Assembly: GCA_946406115.1 (NCBI GenBank)
Contig: OX291551.1
Span: forward strand, 11,780,001 to 11,844,000
Origin: Apoda limacodes
Taxonomy: Eukaryota > Arthropoda > Insecta > Lepidoptera > Limacodidae
Direction of reading: 5' to 3'
Length of the DNA: 64,000 nucleotides
In this document: piece after piece, positions 23,842 through 62,600 of the stretch
Numbering within the stretch: the stretch's first letter is position 1
Layout of the letters: each line of letters opens with the position of its first letter
Notes under the pieces: generated by a model
Database searches by the model: none
What the model was told of the DNA's origin: nothing
What the model saw: the letters and a program-made list of their open reading frames with translations, nothing else
Made by a program: the position numbers and the translations under genes

Positions 23842-24225
23842 TACAAGCGCCCTCGCAGGGTACAATTATCACATAGCATCAGGCGGACCGTAAGCTTGTT
23901 TGCAATCTAAGGTAAAAATAAAAGGTAGGTAATTATTGCATTGCACTGTTCAGTTTTGCAAAGGCATTAATGAACTATTCTTAGGGCGTGTATAGCAACT
24001 AACTAGCGCCGCCCACACACGAAGCTATAATATATATATATATACAAGCGCCCTCACAGGGTACAATTATCACATAGCATCAGGCGGACCGTAAGCTTGT
24101 TTGCAATCTAAGGTAAAAATAAAAGGTAGGTAATTATTGCATTGCACTGTTCAGTTTTGCAAAGGCATTAATGAACTATTCTTAGGGCGTGTATAGCAAC
24201 TAACTAGCGCCGCCCACACACGAAG

Positions 24226-24243
<18 letters not shown>
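23842..24243 (+). repeat. Two-copy 201-bp tandem duplication
   Basis: Unit 1 (23842-24042) and unit 2 (24043-24243) differ at one visible base (CCTCGCAGGG versus CCTCACAGGG) across the alignable part. Each unit contains CATCAGGCGGACCGTAAGCT-TGTTTGCAATCTAAGGT, the 3' tail of the LINE family seen at 46835-47080, and ends in an AT dinucleotide run. The near identity indicates a recent duplication. Confidence 0.93.
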
Positions 24244-24261
<18 letters not shown>

Positions 24262-30188: not shown

Positions 30189-33100
30189 TTAGGATCGCCG
30201 AAGACGTTTAATTTCCAACTGTGGTGACCTTCTCTCTGTGTCTGAATAGTTAGCTGCAGTGTCTGGTGGGTCACTTATATTACTATCATCATGATTTAGA
30301 GGTTCTAACTTAGGTGATGGTGACGATGTATGCATGTCTGCATCCAAAGATGAAGAATATGAATGAGGGGAATCTATTGCAACAGGTCTTAGTGATTGGA
30401 TTGGCAACTGGTACGCACGGGTGGTTGATGGCGATGCAGATGAAGTACTAGGTTGGCTTGTCAAACTTTCTTCTTTGGCATCCATAACATTATTAAAAAT
30501 TTGCCGTTGTACTCTGAGTTGTAATCTTTCAGGTAGTTGGCTTGTAGACAATAACATACTTGTAAAAAACTTTTCCAAGGCAGTATCTTGAGAAATAGTA
30601 CTCTTACTAACTATCTGCCTTCTCAGTTCATCTCTTCGGGTTGCTCTTACTTCTCTTCTTTTTTGTTCTTTCTTTAATGAAGATAGTGTTGTGGCTTTTA
30701 TAGATGGAACAGAAAAATCGTCACTATTCTGCAGTTCTATTGATTCAAAAGGATCTTCGTTTTGTTGCGTTTCGTCGTTATTTACTTGATTATCCTCTTG
30801 CGTTTCAAAATATGTTGTTCTTGGTCTATTCTTCATGGCGGGCAAGAGGAATTCCATTTGTTTTTCATACTTCCATAGAGATTTTATATTTACGGCTTGT
30901 CCGGACTTTTTTCTTGCTATTGCTTGACGATGTCCGTCTCTGAGCTTTCTCCATAAATTCTTAGCTTCTTTAACTGAAACAATAAAAGTATACCAAAGCG
31001 TGCTCTCTAATTGTTTATTATTGTCGTATTTTTTTTTTAAATAACAAAATAAAATTAAGGTAATACGTCAACCAAACTTTTGTCTACAAAACTAATAATT
31101 TCTGTTAGTAACGTAAGTGGCATAATATGTGTATTATTAAGTGTGTTCGTCTCGCTGTTTCGATAGCAAACAGCAAGCTAACACTGAAAATCAGTACTGT
31201 GACTTTTAGCAGCTTTTTGCTGAGTGGGACACATTTTGGCATAAAAACAATAAATTAATTCCAAATAAATAATAAAAAATCGGCCAAGTGCGAGTCAGAC
31301 TCGCGCACCAAGGGTTCCGTACCATTATCTATAAAATATTTGTTTTATTTTATTTCTTTTCAAGTGAATATATAACTAAATATTCTGAGAATATTTCAAG
31401 CGTCTATATACCTGTTGCCGTTATCAATATCGAGCAAAAACGAGCAAAAAAATCACGTTTGTTGTATAGGAGCCCCACTAAATATTTATTTTATTCTATA
31501 TTTGTTGTTTTTGTTGCTATAGCGGCAACCGAAATACATCTTCTGTGAAAATTTCAACTGTCTAACTATAACGGTTCATGAGATACAGCCTGGTGACTAT
31601 AACTAGATAGGCGGTAAGCTTAGCGCTTCGCTATGAGCTTGGCTGGACTCCTAGTTTACTGCCTGCTGTGTATCTAAGTAAACAAATGTCTAGCCACGCA
31701 GGCGCAGTGTGTTTGGGTGTCGCTAGGCGCTAAGCGAGGCGCCCGACAAGGCGATAAGCAAGCCACCAAGTACCCATCCTAGTGACTTACCAGGGGTGTA
31801 TCTAACCTCTAGGCGCTAAGTAAGCCACCGGCCGGCGCGGACGCGGCCTTAGAGGCGATAGGAGTATAAATTAGCGGTTTGCAATGTATATGTGTCATGT
31901 CGTGTACCCATGAGTTGAGTTTTAATACGCCCTTTACAGGACTGTCATGGGTTTGAATATTGGTGTCCTGTTTTTATAACAAAACTGGGAAAAAAAAAAT
32001 AGAAAGCACACACCACTTTATTAAAACAACACTTTTCAATTTAATTTTTTTCTTTAAATAAGTTTGTTGTACTGAATAAGGTGTATTAAAAAATAAAAAA
32101 TATTAAATATGGTATATCATATATATATAATATATAATATGTGCTTAGTTTTTTTTTGTAATTTTTTAACAAAACGTTAATTACTAGAAATATCAATTAA
32201 ACAATGGCAACCCTATAGGTATGTGTAATAACACATAGCCATAGTACCTCTTTATAAAACTACCATCTTATAAAAACTTTATGTTATTTTTATCAGAATC
32301 AATTTTTGTCAATTGCGTTCAGATAAAACCCTAAAATGACCATTAATTTTGTGCAATCTCTACCGATTAAATAGTCTATAATCCTCCCTCTCTCTCTCTA
32401 CCAACTCACCCCTATACCTCCGCCCCAACCCTTTTTTCTCTGTACCCCAGTCTGGCTGGACACAATGTATTTAATTTACATCTAAGCCTTCCTGAAAGTG
32501 CGCCGCGGGTAAACGTTTAGACGTAAAACTATAATAATTTGTTACAGACTTTACTTACTGCACGCAACATTAGTCTTTGCTTGTTTTGACATGTTTAAAA
32601 AAACATACAACCAAATTGAGAACCTTCTCCTTTTTTAAGTTGGTTAGTAAAAAAACACAGTCGAAATTGTAATTTAACATGGTCGTGGGTAACCCACTAG
32701 GGTTGCCCACATTTTTTTTCAGCCCAAAGGGACAAACGATCATGAACCTCAAAAAACACGGGATAAGTATTTTTCCCCCGGGACATAGCCTATTGCATTT
32801 TTACTTACCTATATTTCGTTTTATTTAGACTTTTACCATTTACTTACGTTAATACATACTTTTAATATTTTACTTACAGACTTCACTGTACGCAATAGGT
32901 ATATCTTTTTATATTGTGCCGTGTTTATACAAAGAAACAAAAACGAAATCGTAGTTATACATGGTCGCAGTCGGTCACTCCTAAGATTTTCGTAAAATAC
33001 CGGACGTGTCCTGTCCCGGCGAAACATTGAAATTTATGCAAGAAATATGGGACGTCCCGCGAAAAACGGGACGATTGGCGACGCTAGTCCCCACAAGATT

Positions 33101-51480: not shown

Positions 51481-52153
51481 CACTTTGCTTCTTTGTGCCA
51501 AATATTTTTGAAAATATGATTAAAATTATATAAATACTTATTTTTCCAAAAATTATGCGAATCTTTTAGCTAAAAGAGTTTTAAGAAACTATACTATGAC
51601 CATAATCGACAAAAAATACATTCAATTATTATTTCTTATAAATTATTTCTATAACAAAAAAGTAAAATTTTGACATGACAGACATCTTTTTGGCATCAAA
51701 AAAAAAACTCATACAAACTGCCAAAAAAACTTTTTGCAACAAAAAAACAACAGGTTTCTAAAAGATGTACTAAAGAGGTAAAAAAATTACTTATTTCCAA
51801 AATTCTGATCTGATTTACAGTTTAAAGTTGGTTTTTACCTTTTTAGTGCATCTTCGACTTGCTTTTTTCGTACACTAAAAATATTCATACTAGTAACAAA
51901 ATGTTATACAATCATCAATGTAAAAGACGTTGCATCAATTCCAAAGTAACGCCAATCATTATTTTTTCCCAAAACTTTAAGGTTTAAATACACTTCATTA
52001 ATATGGAAGCACCTCGGAAGCATACCCTTTTAAATACAAAAAGAATTTTGCAAATCCGTATATATATGACGGAGTTATGCCACAACATACATAAAAAATA
52101 TATAAAAATCCGAATTAAGAAACTTCTACCTCCTTTTCTAAAGTCGGTTAAAA
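51481..52153 (-). repeat. Family E repeat; left arm of a long inverted repeat
   Basis: Bases 51481-52067 are complementary, with moderate divergence and small indels, to 55147-55746. Examples are CACTTTGCTTCTTTGTGCCA against TGGCACAAAGAAGCAAAGTG, and ATTTCCAAAATTCTGATCTG against CAGATCAGAATTTTGGAAAT. The copy continues to 52153 and ends AGTCGGTTAAAAAT, so it is more complete on that side than its partner. Confidence 0.88.
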
Positions 52154-55146: not shown

Positions 55147-55746
55147 ATATATATATACGGATTTGCAAAATTCTTTTTTATTTAAAAGGGTATACTTCCG
55201 AGGTGCTTCTATATTAATGTAGTGTATTTAAACCTTAAAGTTTTGGTAAACAAAAAATTACTGGCGTTACTTTGGAATTAGTGCAACGTCTTTTACGTTG
55301 ATGATTGTATAACATTTTGTTACTAGTATGAATATTTTTAGGGTACGAAAAAGTAATTCGTCACTAAAAAGTAACAAATAAAAACTTTTTACAAAAATAA
55401 AAAAAACAACCGGTTTCAACAAGATGCACTAAAAAGGTAAAAACCAACTTCAAACTGTAATTCAGATCAGAATTTTGGAAATAAGTAATTATTTTTACCT
55501 CTTTAGAAACCTGTTGTTTTTTTTTATGCCAAAAAGTAATCAGGATGTCATGTCAAAATTTATTTTTTTTGTTATAGAAATAATTTATAAGAAATAATAA
55601 TTGAATGTATTTTTTTGTCGATTATGGTCATAGTATTGTTTCTAAAAACACTTTTGGCTTAAAAATTTGCATAATTTTTTGAAAAATAAGTATTTATATA
55701 ATTTTAATCATATTTTCAAAAAAATTTGGCACAAAGAAGCAAAGTG
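55147..55746 (+). repeat. Family E repeat; right arm of the long inverted repeat
   Basis: The reverse complement of 51481-52067, as described for that arm. The copy stops at an AT tract (55145-55157) instead of continuing to the ACCGACTTT end. The plus-strand LINE fragment begins about 130 bp beyond. Confidence 0.88.
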
Positions 55747-55837
55747 GCACAAAACGGTAAAGACTGCAGGTTACAGCGCAGTGCCAGCGTTAGACTTGTA
55801 GGATTCATACGCCATTTTCGTTAGAAATGCAGGTTTC

Positions 55838-56743
55838 GTGTTAAGGAAAATAAGAAAACAAGTTAATATTGATTTGGCAACAATATACATACATTCTTCT
55901 CTCCACCACATGTATGCAGACGACGATCTCCAGGTCTATAATCAAACAACTTTTGATGATTTATTTCAAACGATAGGTTTGATAAACTCTGATCTCCTCA
56001 AAATTTCAGAATGGAGCAAAGCCTTTAACATAAAAATAAACCCAGCAAAAACCCAGGCCATAATACTAGGCAGTCCAAAGTTTATGTCTAGAATAAACTG
56101 GGTTAGTCTCCCAAAAGTTTGTGTAGACAATGTATTTATACCTTATAATGACCAGGTTAAGAATCTAGGTATTATTATAGATAGTAGTATGTCTTGGACT
56201 TCACAGATAGCCGAGGTCGGTAAGAAAATGTTTTCCGCTGTAGGTTCCCTAAGAAGGCTGCAAAATTTCCTACCCACGGACACTAAAATTGTTCTTGCAC
56301 ACTCTCTTTTGCTTCCCATACTCGATTACGCCGATGCTAGCTATCCTGATTTAACTGAAGACCAATTAAACAAACTTGAGCGACTACAAAATCTCTGTAT
56401 TCGGTTTATATTTGGATTACGCAAATATGACCATATTTCCAATTTCCGCGTGAAGCTCAAGTGGCTCCCAATTCGCTTTCGCCGGAATGCTCATATTCTT
56501 TCACTTCTTTACTGTGTGCTGTTCAATCCTAGCTACCCTTCTTATCTCAAAGAGCGTTTTGGTTACTATGCCTCTTTGCGTTCCTCCTCTAATTTATAAC
56601 TTAATACACCGAGTCACAACTCAAAATTTTACGTTGATTCCTTCACCGTACAAGCAGTACGATTGTGGAACTCTCTCCCAGTAGATATCCGAAAAGCACA
56701 ATCACTTACAACCTTCAAAGCACAAGTGAAAAAGCATTTTTAA
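55838..56743 (+). pseudogene. LINE reverse transcriptase C-terminal half, plus strand
   Basis: A 5'-truncated copy of the family at 36840-38970. Reading starts within the catalytic region as HHMYADDDLQVYNQ, which carries an extra Asp in the YADD-LQVY box. It continues through SEWSKAFNIKINPAKTQAII, SWTSQIAEVGKKMF, LNKLERLQNLCIRFIFGLRK and LFNPSYPSYLKERF. A frame change between about 56570 and 56619 then leads to DSFTVQAVRLWNSLPVDIRK and FKAQVKKHF with a TAA at 56741-56743. Against the minus-strand copy, residues around the CLTLRSS segment are partly deleted. The leading 15 or so codons before HHMYADD do not match the family and are probably flanking sequence. Confidence 0.9.
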
Positions 56744-57089
56744 ATCTCTTTAAAAAATTTAATTAGAAGTGAAACAATTTTCTTTTATCTTCTAGAATCG
56801 TAATATTGAATCGGTTTGTGCACAAAAAGTTAGTTGAACTCGCTCAAAATTCTTAAATTTAAATTAAAAACATCAAAATTAAACCTAATTAATAAACTTA
56901 AATTTATTCTTGCAAGACTAAGTAGTATCCATTTACTGAGATTCGATGTGGTTGTTACCTCCCTCTAAAGAACTGCAGTCCTACTTCAGCAGGGACCTCG
57001 GATACTGTCAGGAATATACAACTCTCGAGATCCTCGAGGGTTCCCGCGTGAATGACACTGGAGCTCTCACACTATTTTATGTTGTAGTA
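56744..57089 (+). mobile_element. Probable 3' untranslated region of the preceding LINE
   Basis: No coding sequence. It lacks the CTTATCGCT-AAGCGATC block of the other family members, so it belongs to a different subfamily or has been replaced. CCTCTAAAGAACTGCAGTCC and ATCCTCGAGGGTTCCCGCGT are moderately GC-rich. Confidence 0.4.
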
Positions 57090-57101
57090 CCCCCCCCCCC
57101 C
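57090..57101 (+). repeat. Poly(C) tract
   Basis: Twelve consecutive C bases, unusual in this AT-rich window. They mark the left edge of the compositionally different region that follows. Confidence 0.95.
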
Positions 57102-57639
57102 TAACTAATTATTAAAATTATTTAAATTTGAACTCACGTGGAGTGAACGACAGGTTGCCGCCAATTTGAATACGTGAAGGCATGTGATGACGTACGTAAT
57201 CCTAACATATTATTGTTGCCTTTATTATTATTAAACATTAATGATATTTTGTAACCGTTATTAGTGTTATTATTAAAGAAAGCTAATATTTTATTTGGCT
57301 GTGATCATCTAATGGCGTAATCGTCTATTTGGACCCCTCGTTGTGACCGGTAATAACCCAAGATCCTAAGAGGTATGGATTCAATCAGTCCCAGGTGTGA
57401 AAGAATAAACTCAAAACCCTAATCTTACATTATGCCTACATTAAAGACAATGATCTATAACCAATCCTTAACCGCAAAGCCACTAAGTCCTAACTAGCAT
57501 TAGACCAGAATTTAAATTACTAAATCCGAGTTTCTGCTCAAAATATATGTGGTTTATTATTCTAACGTAGTCGGAGTACCTAGGCCTAAATCACTCTATT
57601 CACCAGCTTAGCTACCTCCCTACAACTCCAGACAAATCC
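57102..57639. other. Start of the compositionally different region, no gene recognised
   Basis: C/A-rich plus strand with repeated CCTAA and CTTAA words. No coding frame is supported. Confidence 0.45.
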
Positions 57640-58208
57640 CGTAATAACAAGGTTACCCCTTGGCCACGATAGGCCTCAAAGTTATAACGTTATGATAGTA
57701 TATGAATCCTCACTATAAGGATGAAACCCTAAGACCGCCTACCCCTTAAGTGAAGTCGTAATCTTATAGTAATGTATGAGAGTCGCCTTAAGGAAGAACT
57801 CTTAAACGGTAAGTAGTCCATCAATAACCTCGTTAGCTTCCCCTTAAGTAAAATTGTAACCTCATGGTAATGTATGAACCTCACCTTAGGAAGAACCCTT
57901 AAATTGTAAATAATCTACCACCAACCCCACTAGCTTCCCCTTAACTAAAGTGGTAACCTTATCATAATGTAGGAAAGTCACCTTGAAGGGAGAACCCTTA
58001 GGCATATTAAGGTACTAACCACTAATAAACTCACTGGCTTCCCCTTAACTAAGTTTAGGCACTTGCAACAATATGTCGAAATCATTAAAGTGACAGACGG
58101 ACCTATTTAGTAACTAAACAAATCATTAGCAGATACGCTTTTGATCCCTTAAATAACCTGTAAAACTGTAATATAATATGAAAGGTCACCGTACGGATAA
58201 ACTAACAG

Positions 58209-58247
<39 letters not shown>

Positions 58248-58590
58248 CACACGAATATACTCGCTAGCTACCCCTTAAGTAAATTACAAAACCGTCATGA
58301 TAACACTTAAAAGTGCACCCACGGACGGACCGACAGGTTTAGTAGTTGCATAAATTATAAAATCGCAATGGTATTCGAGAAGCCGCCCAAAGACGAATAG
58401 ACAATCTAAGTATATAAAAAAGACCCTACCACTATCCTTACTAGCTTCCCTTAGCAGACTTTAAGATTATAATAATATATGGAGAATCACTGTAAAGACG
58501 AACTAACAGATTAGAAGTTAATGTAACCCTGAACTACATCTACAGCCTACCCTTTAAATAGAGTTATAACCTAGTCCTAACCGTAGGTAT
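57640..58590 (+). repeat. Degenerate satellite, units of about 95-125 bp
   Basis: The unit anchor GCTTCCCCTTAAGTAAA or variants recurs at about 57738, 57836, 57931, 58034, 58141, 58268, 58443 and 58541. Within units, GTAATGTATGAA-type and TCACCTTA-GGAAGAACCCTTA-type blocks follow in the same order. Later units change to AAAGACGAACTAACAGATT. It is non-coding and internally interrupted by a (TA)n tract. I do not recognise the family. Confidence 0.8.
58213..58248. repeat. (TA)n microsatellite
   Basis: An uninterrupted AT dinucleotide run within the satellite. Confidence 0.95.
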
Positions 58591-59740
58591 CTAGAAATCC
58601 CCATACATTCATGATGATTATTTTACCACTGTGGCTCACGCCATCTGTGTAATAATCGTGGAATTACTCGGTCGATCGATATCTTAGCTAACTGTCTAAT
58701 AATCTTGGAGATATTGAGGAGGCCTTATAGAGGGCGCTAAGGGCGGACGATTTAGTATGGAAGTCTATCTAAATCTACCAATCCTAGTTTCCAGGTCGTT
58801 TACGGGTAACCCTAACTGGGAATCGTCCAGGAAAATTCACATATACAACCATTCCTTAAGGGTTCGTAAGTTGTCCTATCCAGAATTGATGGGCCCGCCA
58901 CCGAATTATCCCCTCGGCCAATTAATGACTAAACGGTCAGACTTTTCGTACATTTGCCTGTGCATCGAAGTGCCCAGCTGGCGTCTCGTGGTCACGTGGG
59001 TGCGCAGAGTTCACATTTTAGTCTTCTGCGCAGATACAGAGTCTAATCGTGTTACTCGACCTTCCTTCGACTAATTTACGTTGGTTCGGTTTTGGTTTAG
59101 TATCTCGCGACCCGGTCAATACGAATTTCGTTATTAGATCTAAAATTGAGTTTATGTTTACAACCTATGGCGATTATCTACACTAGAATATAAAGTTTAT
59201 GAAAACAAAACTATAAAATTGAGACAAAACCTAACGCTCGCCTAACTTATACTCTAGGTTGTTCCTACCTGGTCGCTAAAATGAATATTGAAAAATAATT
59301 ATGTATAACTTGAATTTGAATAGCCTTAAAGGCCTAGGGTACCGTCTGGCCTTAAGCGGTTGTCAATTATATCGTGTCTATTATCTGACTAACGCCTTGG
59401 AACCTTTAGCAAGGAAGGTATATAACGACCAACTCCTGACAGACTCGTACATAGTTTTAATCAGACTAGCTTACCGTGTGGCTTCGCCTTCCTGTCATTT
59501 AGTAATTGAGTAAGTGTATAAACATTAGTCTTTCGTACACTGTGCCTTAAACGGTTCTTTAGGATAGGTAAGTAGTGCTCCCCACCAACTCCTACGTTTA
59601 TAACGCTACGGAGGTGGCACACAACCAGGCGACCATGTATTTATCCTTACTACTGTGACTAACTATGGAACTAAGGGGACCATTTCGTTATTATTTGAAT
59701 ACAACCTACGATCGGTCTGTTCGAACCCGAGGCTCCTTAA
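58591..59740. other. Unrecognised DNA, no gene supported
   Basis: The longest frame is 105 codons at 58757-59074 on the plus strand; it shows no domain and no family resemblance. The C/A-rich texture of the satellite continues. No RNA gene is seen, although GTTCGAACCC at about 59721 resembles a tRNA T-loop by chance. Confidence 0.4.
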
Positions 59741-59806
59741 GTTAAATAGCCGCTATCCCGGAGAGGCTATACTCGCCCGAAACATGTGTCGTGCAGGCTA
59801 AGTTCA
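59741..59806 (+). ncRNA. Decayed type-I hammerhead ribozyme-like motif
   Basis: Hammerhead ribozymes are small self-cleaving RNAs. Here the 3' half is well formed: GAA (59779-59781), then A15.1 and C15.2 (59782-59783), loop ATGT, then G and U (59788-59789) and C17 (59790). This gives a minimal two-pair stem III and a GUC cleavage triplet. The 5' half of the core, expected CUGANGA, reads CCGGAGA (59758-59764), two transitions away from consensus. Stem II is weakened by a missing base (GGC-TATACTCG-CCC). Stem I can form through TAGCC (59747-59751) with GGCTA (59796-59800). Type-I hammerheads with a minimal stem III are known from Penelope-like retroelements; assignment to such an element is inference. 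It is probably inactive. Confidence 0.45.
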
Positions 59807-59943
59807 TATGAAATAATAAATTAGGTGTGCGATTACGCACATGGTTAAGTGGTAAATTGTTCATCAGAGTAATTAAGGCGACAGAACACCTAATTTGGCA
59901 CACAATAAGTATGTTTAAGGTGGGTTGTAAGGGAGACATATCT

Positions 59944-60001
59944 ACACTCAGGACCTGGCGCATTAGCCAGATCAAGTAAGGGTTAGCCCTTTTCTGAGTG
60001 T
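59944..60001. other. Three-way-junction fold next to the hammerhead
   Basis: An outer 8-bp stem, ACACTCAG (59944-59951) with CTGAGTGT (59994-60001), encloses two perfect 5-bp hairpins. These are CTGGC-GCATTA-GCCAG (59955-59970) and AAGGG-TTAG-CCCTT (59978-59991). It starts nine bases 3' of the ribozyme on the ribozyme's strand. It is not a tRNA: arm lengths and loops do not fit. The function is unknown. Confidence 0.6.
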
Positions 60002-60010
60002 TTAGAACTT

Positions 60011-60087
60011 AACGTTTCGGCTTTCCATACAACAATTCAGAGCCTCATCAGTTAGTAGAGAATTGTGTATGATTATACTAATACGTC
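60011..60087 (-). ncRNA. Hammerhead ribozyme, complete core (type III layout)
   Basis: Reading 5'-3' on the minus strand: GACGT (60087-60083, stem III), A (60082, position 17, cleavage site), TTAGT (60081-60077, stem I), a 20-base loop, ACTAA (60056-60052, stem I), CTGATGA (60051-60045), GGCT (60044-60041, stem II), an 18-base loop, AGCC (60022-60019, stem II), GAA (60018-60016) and ACGTT (60015-60011, stem III). Stem I is 5 bp, stem II is 4 bp with the conserved G10.1-C11.1 pair, and stem III is 5 bp starting with the required A15.1-U16.1 pair and ending in one G-U pair. All core bases (CUGAUGA, GAA, H17) are present. Stem III is the open one, so the layout is type III. Such RNAs cleave themselves at position 17. 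No promoter or host element coding sequence is visible nearby. Confidence 0.8.
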
Positions 60088-60101
60088 TTCAACGGGGTGA
60101 T

Positions 60102-60930
60102 TCATGGTGAAGAATAGAACAAATCCTGACCCACTAACGTCACCTCATAGCCTGTTAATAAAGTTTGGTCAAGGTCGAAGTTCTGTCATCTTTATCTTAA
60201 ATGGCTCAGTCAAAACATAAATTAAACAGTATAAAGCAATAAAATAAAGCCTAGATAGTCTAAATAAAAATTAGACTCGCTAGATTAATGTCGCGGCCCT
60301 GAAAAACATATGAGGTTTACGTTTATTTTTACACAGGAAACAAATATTTAAATATGAACACAATAATACTTAGCTTTCCAAATCTATCCGTCGCAGTAAT
60401 GGGTGGAGTGGAGGTTTTATTTATATACGAATTCCTTAAGGAGATTGGGTTAAAAATCCCACATTAAATTTTAGCCGCCCATTACCTAAACGGAATCTAA
60501 CAGTTCAGCTTCCTTACTCGACGCCGGTGAAGGGTGGAACTGGAGCCAACCTAGATCTAGGTTTAGTCAGCCCCTCACACCCTTAGATTCCCGAAGCCTG
60601 CAGTTTATCAAGCATGTCTCTAACATTAAGCCCCGATCTCCCCTCATCTTATAACAAGCCAGACCCCGCTTGAAGAACCCCTACTGTGACTGCCCCGTCC
60701 TCGCCTACCTCTATCTACCAAGGGTCTGCTTGCTTTGGGGATCACCATACTGCAAAGCAGCACGATGTCGGAATTAAAATTGTTATGATAATAAATAGTG
60801 AATATAGAGATATCATTAACGTAATAGTCAATTACATGCAACAACCTCGTCTAACTTTAATGAGCACCTACTAAATCGTGTAGGGTTTCTTTAATAGGAA
60901 TTCATGACAAGGTTCGCACAAGGATTACAT
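60102..60930. other. Unrecognised DNA around the hammerhead, no gene supported
   Basis: A weak direct repeat about 130 bp apart is visible (AGTAATGGGTGGAGTGGAG at about 60396 and GGTGAAGGGTGGAACTGGAG at about 60526). Short overlapping frames of 60-66 codons occur on both strands. No reverse transcriptase, GIY-YIG or integrase motif could be read on either strand. Confidence 0.4.
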
Positions 60931-61126
60931 ACTCATACACATATGTGCACAGCAAGGGCCACACAAGGACTACCCCAGCGAGTCCTTTGGGGGGTCCCTT
61001 CACCTCCGACTCAGATCAGTGCGAGTAACCGCGGCCCAGGGACTCGCGTAGGGTTTTATCCAGTGAGGATATCCAAACTCATACACATACACGCACTACA
61101 GGGAATACACAAGATTTACCCTAGCC
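60931..61126 (+). repeat. Degenerate direct repeat of about 50 bp, 146 bp apart
   Basis: ACTCATACACATATGTGCAC with ACACAAGGACTACCCCAGC (60931-60980) recurs as ACTCATACACATACACGCAC with ACACAAGATTTACCCTAGCC (61077-61126). It is probably the remains of a tandem array. Confidence 0.65.
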
Positions 61127-62600
61127 TTAACCCTAAGCTTAACCGACTTCCTATCTAATCAGATCAGGGCTTAATTACGGGGTTTTCCTCCCACAAGGTA
61201 TCACAAAATTTACAACATCATGTTAAAAGACATCGATCCCGGCAGGAACCTTTTACTCCACTAAATTTTCTACAGAAATCGGCAATCTCTTTTCCTTAGA
61301 GAGTACATAGTCAACAATGTCAACAAATTACCTCTGCATTTTTAATAAGTAAGGGTTTTTTTTTCTTCTCTACCCCAAATTTACAACTAAAATCCCGGAC
61401 TAAATCCCAACCAAAAAGTCAAACACTTTTAATTTTCCCCAACCAACCCTTCACTTTAACCAAGGTGGCATCTTACACGGTCCCTTACACAGTCCTTACG
61501 CCATCGTATAAAGGAAGTCCCTCACAAAGCCCCATAGTACAAACCCATCAATAATAAGTTGACATTGCTAGCCTCAGTTCTAACAAAAGACACTTACTGA
61601 TATTTGATGTAGGCGAAACGTGCACGGCGCCGGTATTAAATTTCTTTAAATCTTTGTGCGTCCTGTCCTTCACACATCCTCAGGAACCTCGAGCACGGCC
61701 AGCCTCTCGGCACGACGACAGTGAAAAAGGGTGCCGCAACTGACGCCTATCGCTTATAACCGTTTTCCCCTCCCCCACGATAGACGCGGCCTGAACGCGT
61801 GGCGTGTCTAGAAATGGTGGCGCCAGTTAAATTCTTCTTTATTTTACTTCCACGTGTACCCACGTGCTCCGCAGTTTAGTGGCCAGTTACTTTATAGTAA
61901 TAATCGAACAATCATATCGAATCGCAAAACGATTCTACTAAATCATTTACCTGCTGAGCTAGCTTCTCCGCATTTCCGTGGCTCGATTATACAGCTTCGA
62001 TTAGTCTACACATTGGAGGTTCGTCGTAAGCGGCGCGGAGCCTACTCTACCATCCCTCTCGCACCCTACAACGTTTATATCAATTAACTGAGAATAATCA
62101 ATCGATATTCTCCATATATTTTAACCTCCTGGTTATCTGCTACTTTACGAATCGGTCGTATTTAACGAGCAATTATTTTTGTGTTGATGATTTCAGGATC
62201 CTACCGCGATTTACGCCTTATGACGTAGGTATAAACATATTAATCGAAGACCGGTGAGGACATCCCGGGCCACTCACTTACTTCATACTTCATTGATCTC
62301 GTTTCTATCAATTTATTAGGAGTATTCGATTGGTATGAATTACGAAGGTGATTAATCTAATTTATATTTATTATTGATGAATTCCATCTTTAATTTACCT
62401 GCTCTCTTAAAACTTAAATTAGCATGTCAACACCGTGTCGTGAGGTCCAGATTACTACAATTCTCTATTAACGGCTTGGATCCACTACAATGTCTTTTGT
62501 CACTGTCACTTTCAAAGTCCACAAAATGAATTATAACACTTGCGGCGCGTTTAAAAAAATTAAAGGTACCTGTATAGTTTAGGGAAAGAATTGTTGTAAT
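61127..62600. other. Unrecognised C/A-rich DNA, no gene supported
   Basis: The interval 61380-61560 is C-rich and pyrimidine-biased. A GCGAAACGTGCACGGCGCCG stretch at 61614 and TGGTGGCGCCAGTTAAA near 61815 stand out but could not be tied to a known element. No coding frame is convincing. Confidence 0.4.

Follow-up and report, generated by a model that had tools for sequence, protein, structure and literature searches.

A type III hammerhead motif in the LTRs of a giant Ty3/Gypsy family of Apoda limacodes and its proposed role in RNA processing

A solo LTR carrying a hammerhead motif

The window, i.e. the whole stretch of 64,000 nucleotides of Apoda limacodes DNA that was analysed, carries on its minus strand a solo LTR of a giant Ty3/Gypsy element, and a type III hammerhead motif lies about 2.4 kb inside this 5.4-kb LTR (Table 1). 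The LTR of a complete copy of the same family aligns to the window over 57113-62494, in four pieces that display 85-93% identity. No mate LTR was found within the window or in the next 20 kb. An earlier note, made from the letters of the window, had described a ribozyme with no identifiable host element. This description has to be given up, since the motif lies inside the solo LTR and whole copies carry a hammerhead in both LTRs; an isolated ribozyme without host is ruled out by the LTR borders, the target duplications and the paired copies of the genome. By contrast, the guess of the same note that the motif belongs to a ribozyme-bearing repeat family turned out to be right, as hammerheads are found in both LTRs of whole Ty3/Gypsy copies of the same genome.

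Table 1. Coordinates of the features of the window and of an ORF shared by family members
Feature	Position	Strand	Remarks
Solo LTR of a giant Ty3/Gypsy element, 5407 bp	57083-62489	minus	TGTAG...CTACA ends
Target site duplication ATGT, one side	57079-57082		flank read
Target site duplication ATGT, other side	62490-62493		flank read
97-bp tandem repeat within the LTR	57742-58000	minus
Type III hammerhead motif, 77 nt	60087-60011	minus	nt 2403-2479 of the LTR of the window copy; read directly and by script
CUGAUGA core	60045-60051	minus	by script; unchanged in 40/41 rows (exception L073, G8 change)
GAA core	60016-60018	minus	by script; unchanged in 41/41 rows
H17 (A)	60082	minus	after U16.1 (GUA triplet); predicted cleavage 60082/60081
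Loop I, 18 nt	60058-60075	minus	60060-60071 can pair with loop II; same in both subfamilies
Loop II, 18 nt	60023-60040	minus	60026-60038 can pair with loop I
Highly structured stretch adjoining the hammerhead on its 3' side	59790-60010	minus	z -4.7 versus 100 dinucleotide shuffles
157-aa ORF, L019	338-808	plus
157-aa ORF, L031	654-1124	plus
157-aa ORF, L032	640-1110	plus
157-aa ORF, L034	750-1220	plus
157-aa ORF, L038	6965-7435	minus

Architecture of the motif and probability of a chance match

The motif includes a stem III GACGT/ACGTT (60087-60083 with 60015-60011) of 5 bp including one G.U, a stem I TTAGTA/TACTAA of 6 bp and a stem II GGCT/AGCC of 4 bp that contains the G10.1-C11.1 pair. With CUGAUGA, GAA, the U16.1-A15.1 pair and an open stem III, it displays the whole type III architecture, and as a sequence pattern the minus-strand motif is confirmed. 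The complete type III hammerhead with open stem III, an A at position 17 and both conserved pairs had already been recognized in the earlier note, as had the long loops I and II; the stems of 5, 4 and 5 bp given there are correct for stems II (4) and III (5), whereas stem I is 6 bp long. Cleavage would be expected after H17, between 60082 and 60081, a position predicted from known hammerhead chemistry. A relaxed scan of the window for types I and III, allowing one core mismatch, detected no second hammerhead.

The window includes nine CTGATGA occurrences. Under a Markov-2 null, in which 4 million 3' flanks were drawn and those passing the stem II test were each paired with 20 random 5' flanks, type III motifs with stems of at least 4 bp and loops of at most 30 nt arise at 4.3e-6 per CTGATGA, or at 1.4e-6 if at least 15 bp in all are demanded. 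This corresponds to about 4e-5 and about 1e-5 motifs expected per window, respectively, and the chance of any of the three hammerhead topologies is 1.7e-4 per window.

The covariance-model search proposed as a check in the earlier note gave a result far below threshold. Indeed, no Rfam family reaches its gathering threshold on the hammerhead interval, and the RF00008 model gives the window motif 17.6 bits for a cut-off of 48.5 (E 1.3 over all families and 1.1 kb). The same model gave no match at E<=10 among the 68 scored of 90,236 candidates genome-wide, nor on the copy L048 of the subfamily B described below. As RF00008, a type III model, gives matches below its cut-off in 7/14 control prokaryotes and none among these 68, it is apparently insensitive to long-loop type III motifs. 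The distance between the motif and the Rfam type III threshold also implies that relatives may have been overlooked.

Copies in the genome and LTR pairs

The genome to which the window belongs (800.3 Mb, 31 contigs) was searched with a 101-nt hammerhead query, leading to 489 candidate copies. The 40 that were scored, a subset of ties chosen by hammerhead identity that does not include the window's own copy, are all 100% identical over the 101 nt. Among them, 34 form 17 neighbour pairs, each with both copies on one strand and a spacing of 11.7-17.3 kb, and 6 are isolated. All neighbours less than 40 kb apart lie on the same strand, both in these 40 copies (17/17) and in a second set of 40 picked by their flank (13/13); a random scatter of 490 copies would give about 12 neighbour pairs below 40 kb genome-wide, half of them on the same strand. 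The same-strand hammerhead pairs are the two LTRs of whole elements.

In the four pairs compared, two of which are bounded by fetched ends, the LTRs are 99.95-100% identical over 4.9-5.6 kb, and this near-identity points to recent activity. The LTR of the copy at C4:29.36-29.38 Mb is 5630 bp long, starts with TGTAG, ends with CTACA and carries the motif at nt 2617; the typical length in the family is about 5.6 kb. Target duplications of 4 bp were found in 5/5 insertions checked, including that of the window, and the LTRs have TG..CA ends. A primer binding site (PBS), TGGTGCCGTGACC..., follows the 5' LTR exactly in two copies and as a variant in the C5:7.02 Mb copy; we take it to fit tRNA-His. 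A polypurine tract (PPT) precedes the 3' LTR in six copies.

Two particular arrangements were also observed. On C16, three same-strand LTR copies of the flank-picked set (26033848, 26045825 and 26057777) show an even spacing of 11,977 and 11,952 bp; this is perhaps an LTR-interior-LTR-interior-LTR array, which would fit multimers made from a circular template and also unequal recombination. In the LTR at C5:7.02 Mb, tandem copies of about 131 bp are found upstream of the hammerhead (L012 266-719).

Coding and non-coding members

A spacing of 16.1-17.3 kb was measured in six of the 17 pairs, and all six include gag/pol-like ORFs in the same sense as the hammerhead. The gag ORF (360-369 aa from stop to stop) is open in five of them and broken in L035. 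The pol ORF was seen in full in L033 and L035 (1211 aa), shows no stop before the fetched sequence ends in L031, L032 (from a later start) and L034, and is split in L036. Relative to gag, it is in the -1 frame in L031, L033, L034 and L035; in L032 and L036, gag and pol frames differ as if small indels had shifted them. Pfam matches on the pol ORFs of L033, L034 and L036 include reverse transcriptase, RNase H and the integrase zinc finger, to which the full one adds the integrase core; in L033 the order is RVT_1, RT_RNaseH, Integrase_H2C2, rve. The protease match is weak (RVP in L034, E 6e-4, 20.5 bits for a cut-off of 20.7), and gag gave neither a Pfam match nor a CCHC knuckle. From this order of domains, with gag followed by a pol in which reverse transcriptase and RNase H precede the integrase, the coding members are assigned to the Ty3/Gypsy type.

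The interior sequence was examined in six of the 11 remaining, more closely spaced pairs (L019, L024 in part, L030, L037, L038 and L039), and no ORF of at least 170 aa was found between their LTRs. The spacing plus one LTR gives an estimated size of roughly 22 kb for coding members and of roughly 17-20 kb for those that lack long ORFs. An ORF of 157 aa near the 5' end of the interior is common to coding and non-coding members (Table 1); that of L019 has no Pfam match. Beyond the PPT, L030 carries an ORF of 423 aa.

Conservation of the motif and subfamily B

Comparison of the window with four copies over about 4.2 kb of LTR revealed a difference-free run of 114-123 nt framing the motif, the longest or second longest of the stretch, in which difference-free windows of 77 nt account for 2-4%; these four copies had been found by motif identity. 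A motif-independent sample was obtained with a 401-nt flank that excludes the motif: 486 candidates were found, 40 copies were picked and the motif was read in 38, the other two being the window itself and a copy of the first set. With the window, L018 and L023, this gives 41 rows, of which 22 carry an identical motif (19 of the 38 flank-picked ones).

Seven of the 41 rows, from five loci, form a subfamily B with seven fixed differences in the motif. Five affect loop positions outside the helix that the two loops can form (see below), one changes stem II from U-A to U.G and one changes stem III from G.U to G-C. All seven are compatible with the hammerhead, an outcome that has a probability of 0.018 for random substitutions, and all seven are compatible with both the hammerhead and the loop-loop helix (0.0006). 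In this helix, a possible end pair, 16-63, is lost and another, 29-49, is gained, so that its energy is kept (-13.7 kcal/mol). On the other hand, the motif of subfamily B diverges no more slowly (7/77) than its flanks (17-25 of 250-253), which counts against constraint.

The earlier note had called for further copies with covarying stems. Copies are indeed found (the 489 candidates) but two-sided covariation is not, the copies being very similar: among 10 distinct rows, none of the pairs has both partners changed, and three further types of one-sided pair changes occur, two in hammerhead stems and one in the loop-loop helix. The pairing measures in these 10 very similar rows equal those of shuffles. 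Differences found in two rows may correspond to the two LTRs of one insertion. In three of the 41 rows a change breaks the motif, at U16.1 in L064, within stem I in L072 and at G8 in L073, which is what old dead copies should show.

These breaking changes in single loci could also be read in favour of a match that arose by chance, has no function and was amplified through its position in a successful LTR, all the more so as the hundreds of candidate copies trace to one ancestor and copy number alone is therefore no evidence of function. Such a chance match is nevertheless very improbable given the low probability of the motif, the exclusively compatible differences between subfamilies and a complementarity between the loops that is reached in only 29 of 20000 shuffles.

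Loop-loop complementarity and the competing rod

The segment CATACACAATTC of loop I is complementary to GAATTGTTGTATG of loop II over 12 bp with one bulge. The duplex, at -13.2 kcal/mol, was equalled by 29 of 20000 shuffled loop pairs. Owing to this complementarity, nested folding favours a rod (-16.0 kcal/mol) over the bare hammerhead (-5.9 kcal/mol). The rod is the minimum-energy nested fold and blocks the ribozyme, which counts against an active hammerhead; stems I and II have a probability of at most 0.001 in 20/20 short contexts, and of 0.13 and 0.0, respectively, in a 600-nt context, in computations whose nested-folding programs are unable to score kissing contacts.

Stem I exceeds stem II by 2 bp (6 versus 4). 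According to Perreault et al. (PMC3088659), about 40% of hammerheads likely have a pseudoknot between stems I and II, which in type III goes with a two-pair difference between these stems. The complementarity between loops I and II may combine a tertiary contact and an off-switch: in the active fold the pairing would act as a tertiary contact, and as a rod it would hold the ribozyme off.

The conserved object could instead be the rod hairpin itself, made of the loop I and loop II segments and stem III and acting for example in packaging, dimerisation or processing, with an accidental hammerhead pattern. The rod is the minimum-energy fold in 15/15 rows of alignment A2, its segments are unchanged between subfamilies, and the weak Rfam scores also favour a rod alone. 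Yet a rod requires neither CUGAUGA, GAA, A15.1-U16.1 and G10.1-C11.1 nor stems I and II, and none of the seven fixed differences violates them (0.018 for random substitutions). A full hammerhead pattern is furthermore an event of about 1e-5 per window, and this alternative appears distinctly unlikely.

The stretch directly 3' of the hammerhead is predicted to adopt a very stable multibranched fold, the closing helix of which shares 3 nt with the 3' strand of stem III. This stretch is possibly a competing or regulatory domain for the hammerhead. Sliding-window folding of 57.0-62.6 kb detected other structured stretches as well, so that this domain is no more than suggestive.

A proposed ribozyme-processed RNA

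The explanation that we consider probable is that of a giant Ty3/Gypsy family carrying, in the middle of each LTR and in the sense of gag-pol, a type III hammerhead that processes its RNA, a circular template being proposed. It builds on what is observed, i.e. the motif, the LTRs, the target duplications, the PBS and PPT, the coding and non-coding members and the conservation. Transcription starting upstream and ending downstream of the motif would put both hammerheads in one RNA, and double cleavage would free an RNA of 12-17 kb that a host ligase of the RtcB type could close into a circle. Once circular, this RNA would contain one full LTR plus the interior, in line with the model of plant retrozymes (PMC4918200). 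Reverse transcription primed by a tRNA could then use the circle as its template, a step that has been proposed for plant LTR retrozymes. Gag-Pol would come from those transcripts of coding members that are capped and stay uncut, and the first fold to form could decide how much RNA serves as mRNA and how much is processed.

A more specific version, tentative but worth considering, is an animal lineage of LTR retrozymes with autonomous members, in which the element's own hammerheads would cut its genomic RNA at both LTRs, replication would proceed through a circular RNA of 12-17 kb and a built-in switch between the rod and a hammerhead with the 12-bp loop-loop contact would split transcripts between Gag-Pol mRNA and template.

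Alternatively, an active ribozyme could serve one-sided RNA processing, such as trimming or turnover of LTR transcripts or control of the gag-pol mRNA, with no circles and an ordinary linear template with R repeats. Indeed, the normal Ty3/Gypsy layout (PBS, PPT, gag and pol) makes a circular template unnecessary. The solo LTRs and the evenly spaced C16 triplet are allowed by the circular-template model (PMC4918200), although ordinary recombination yields them too. Overall, processing without circles seems rather unlikely.

Comparison with known hammerhead-bearing elements

The known LTR retrozymes come from plants, are tiny and encode no protein of their own, and in animals hammerheads have been assigned to non-LTR repeats and to Penelope-like elements (PMC4918200, PMC7229834). 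Like plant LTR retrozymes (Cervera et al. 2016, PMC4918200), the family of A. limacodes carries a type III hammerhead in each of the two LTRs and is flanked by target duplications of 4 bp; it also shows a PBS, a PPT, Ty3/Gypsy affinity, solo LTRs and a hammerhead that the minimum-energy fold blocks. However, plant LTRs are 300-400 bp long versus about 5.6 kb, and a non-coding interior of 300-600 bp contrasts with a hammerhead-to-hammerhead unit of 11.7-17.3 kb. Furthermore, plant elements have a tRNA-Met PBS and encode no proteins (PMC4918200), whereas here the PBS seems to fit tRNA-His, the host is an animal and some members encode gag-pol. Instead of being small (about 1 kb) and non-autonomous, two defining features of LTR retrozymes, the elements of this family have 11.7-17.3 kb between their hammerheads, with gag/pol in 6/17 pairs.

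Among animal elements, non-LTR retrozymes and Penelope-like elements/Terminons also associate a hammerhead with a retroelement (PMC7229834, PMC6431247). Nevertheless, animal retrozymes carry type I hammerheads in short tandem repeats devoid of LTR, PBS and PPT, and the hammerheads of Penelope-like elements are of type I and located in their terminal repeats (PMC7229834, PMC6431247). The combination that defines animal non-LTR retrozymes, a type I hammerhead in tandem repeats of 150-450 bp, is not that of the present family. The giant Ty3/Gypsy elements Ogre and Burro resemble it by their size, the LTRs of Ogre measuring 1.9-6.5 kb, but the accessible part of PMC6431247 mentions no ribozyme in them.

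Type III hammerheads are also described in HDV-like agents and in the genomes of termites and Diptera (PMC7936874), and they share with the present one enlarged helices or loops I and II and a Watson-Crick loop contact. Their stem I, however, has 5 bp and an additional hairpin, their stem II has 6 bp and the contact is a short GCCR/YGGC, whereas the present motif combines stems of 6 and 4 bp, open 18-nt loops, a 12-bp complementarity and an LTR element as host. According to PMC7936874, the termite motifs are isolated, without recognised element, and further dipteran motifs are announced as unpublished.

In a limited look at the open-licence literature, none of the titles and abstract openings listed reports a hammerhead from an LTR retrotransposon of an animal. 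A coding Ty3/Gypsy family with one conserved hammerhead per LTR would show that self-cleavage can belong to the full life cycle of an LTR retrotransposon. Such a family might also be where the orphan type III hammerheads of insect genomes belong, and it makes reverse transcription from a circular template testable in insect cells. If the family truly is a lineage of LTR retrozymes with autonomous members, it would form a bridge between animal LTR elements, plant retrozymes and viroid-like circular RNAs.

Other features of the window and discarded origins

Other origins of the motif were considered and rejected. An HDV-like insertion is not supported, as no Pfam family, the delta antigen included, reached its cut-off in the 20 of 24 local ORFs scanned and as, instead of the rod of about 1.6 kb of such agents, the stretch 59300-60800 shows a folding no better than that of 20 shuffles (z -0.45). 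As regards a viral contig, a 17-mer around the core matches nine IMG/VR contigs, none of which, by eye, continues as a hammerhead, and a 35-mer from the 3' domain has no IMG/VR match. A tRNA or SINE at 59720-59790 was also discarded: ARAGORN found none, and the Rfam scan of 1.1 kb returned no tRNA family. The 88-aa ORF adjoining the motif has no homologue in a protein search.

The earlier note had stated that no reverse transcriptase is readable around the motif. In fact, such sequences are found at 55802-56599 (plus strand), 37.2-39.0 kb and 5.9-8.6 kb. All three lie outside the LTR borders and look like non-LTR reverse transcriptases, and they were rejected as hosts of the hammerhead. For one of them, named relatives are mostly lepidopteran among the 120 matches listed. 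Beside the truncated fragment at 55802-56599, a short repeat has inverted copies at 55601-55746 and 51481-51625 that are 93% identical. The ORF at 30189-31067 (minus strand) has no Pfam match at E<=0.001 and has MADF-type relatives, of which the six named are three lepidopteran and three beetle proteins. Lastly, a 201-bp unit occurs twice in tandem at 23842-24245, with 99% identity between the copies.
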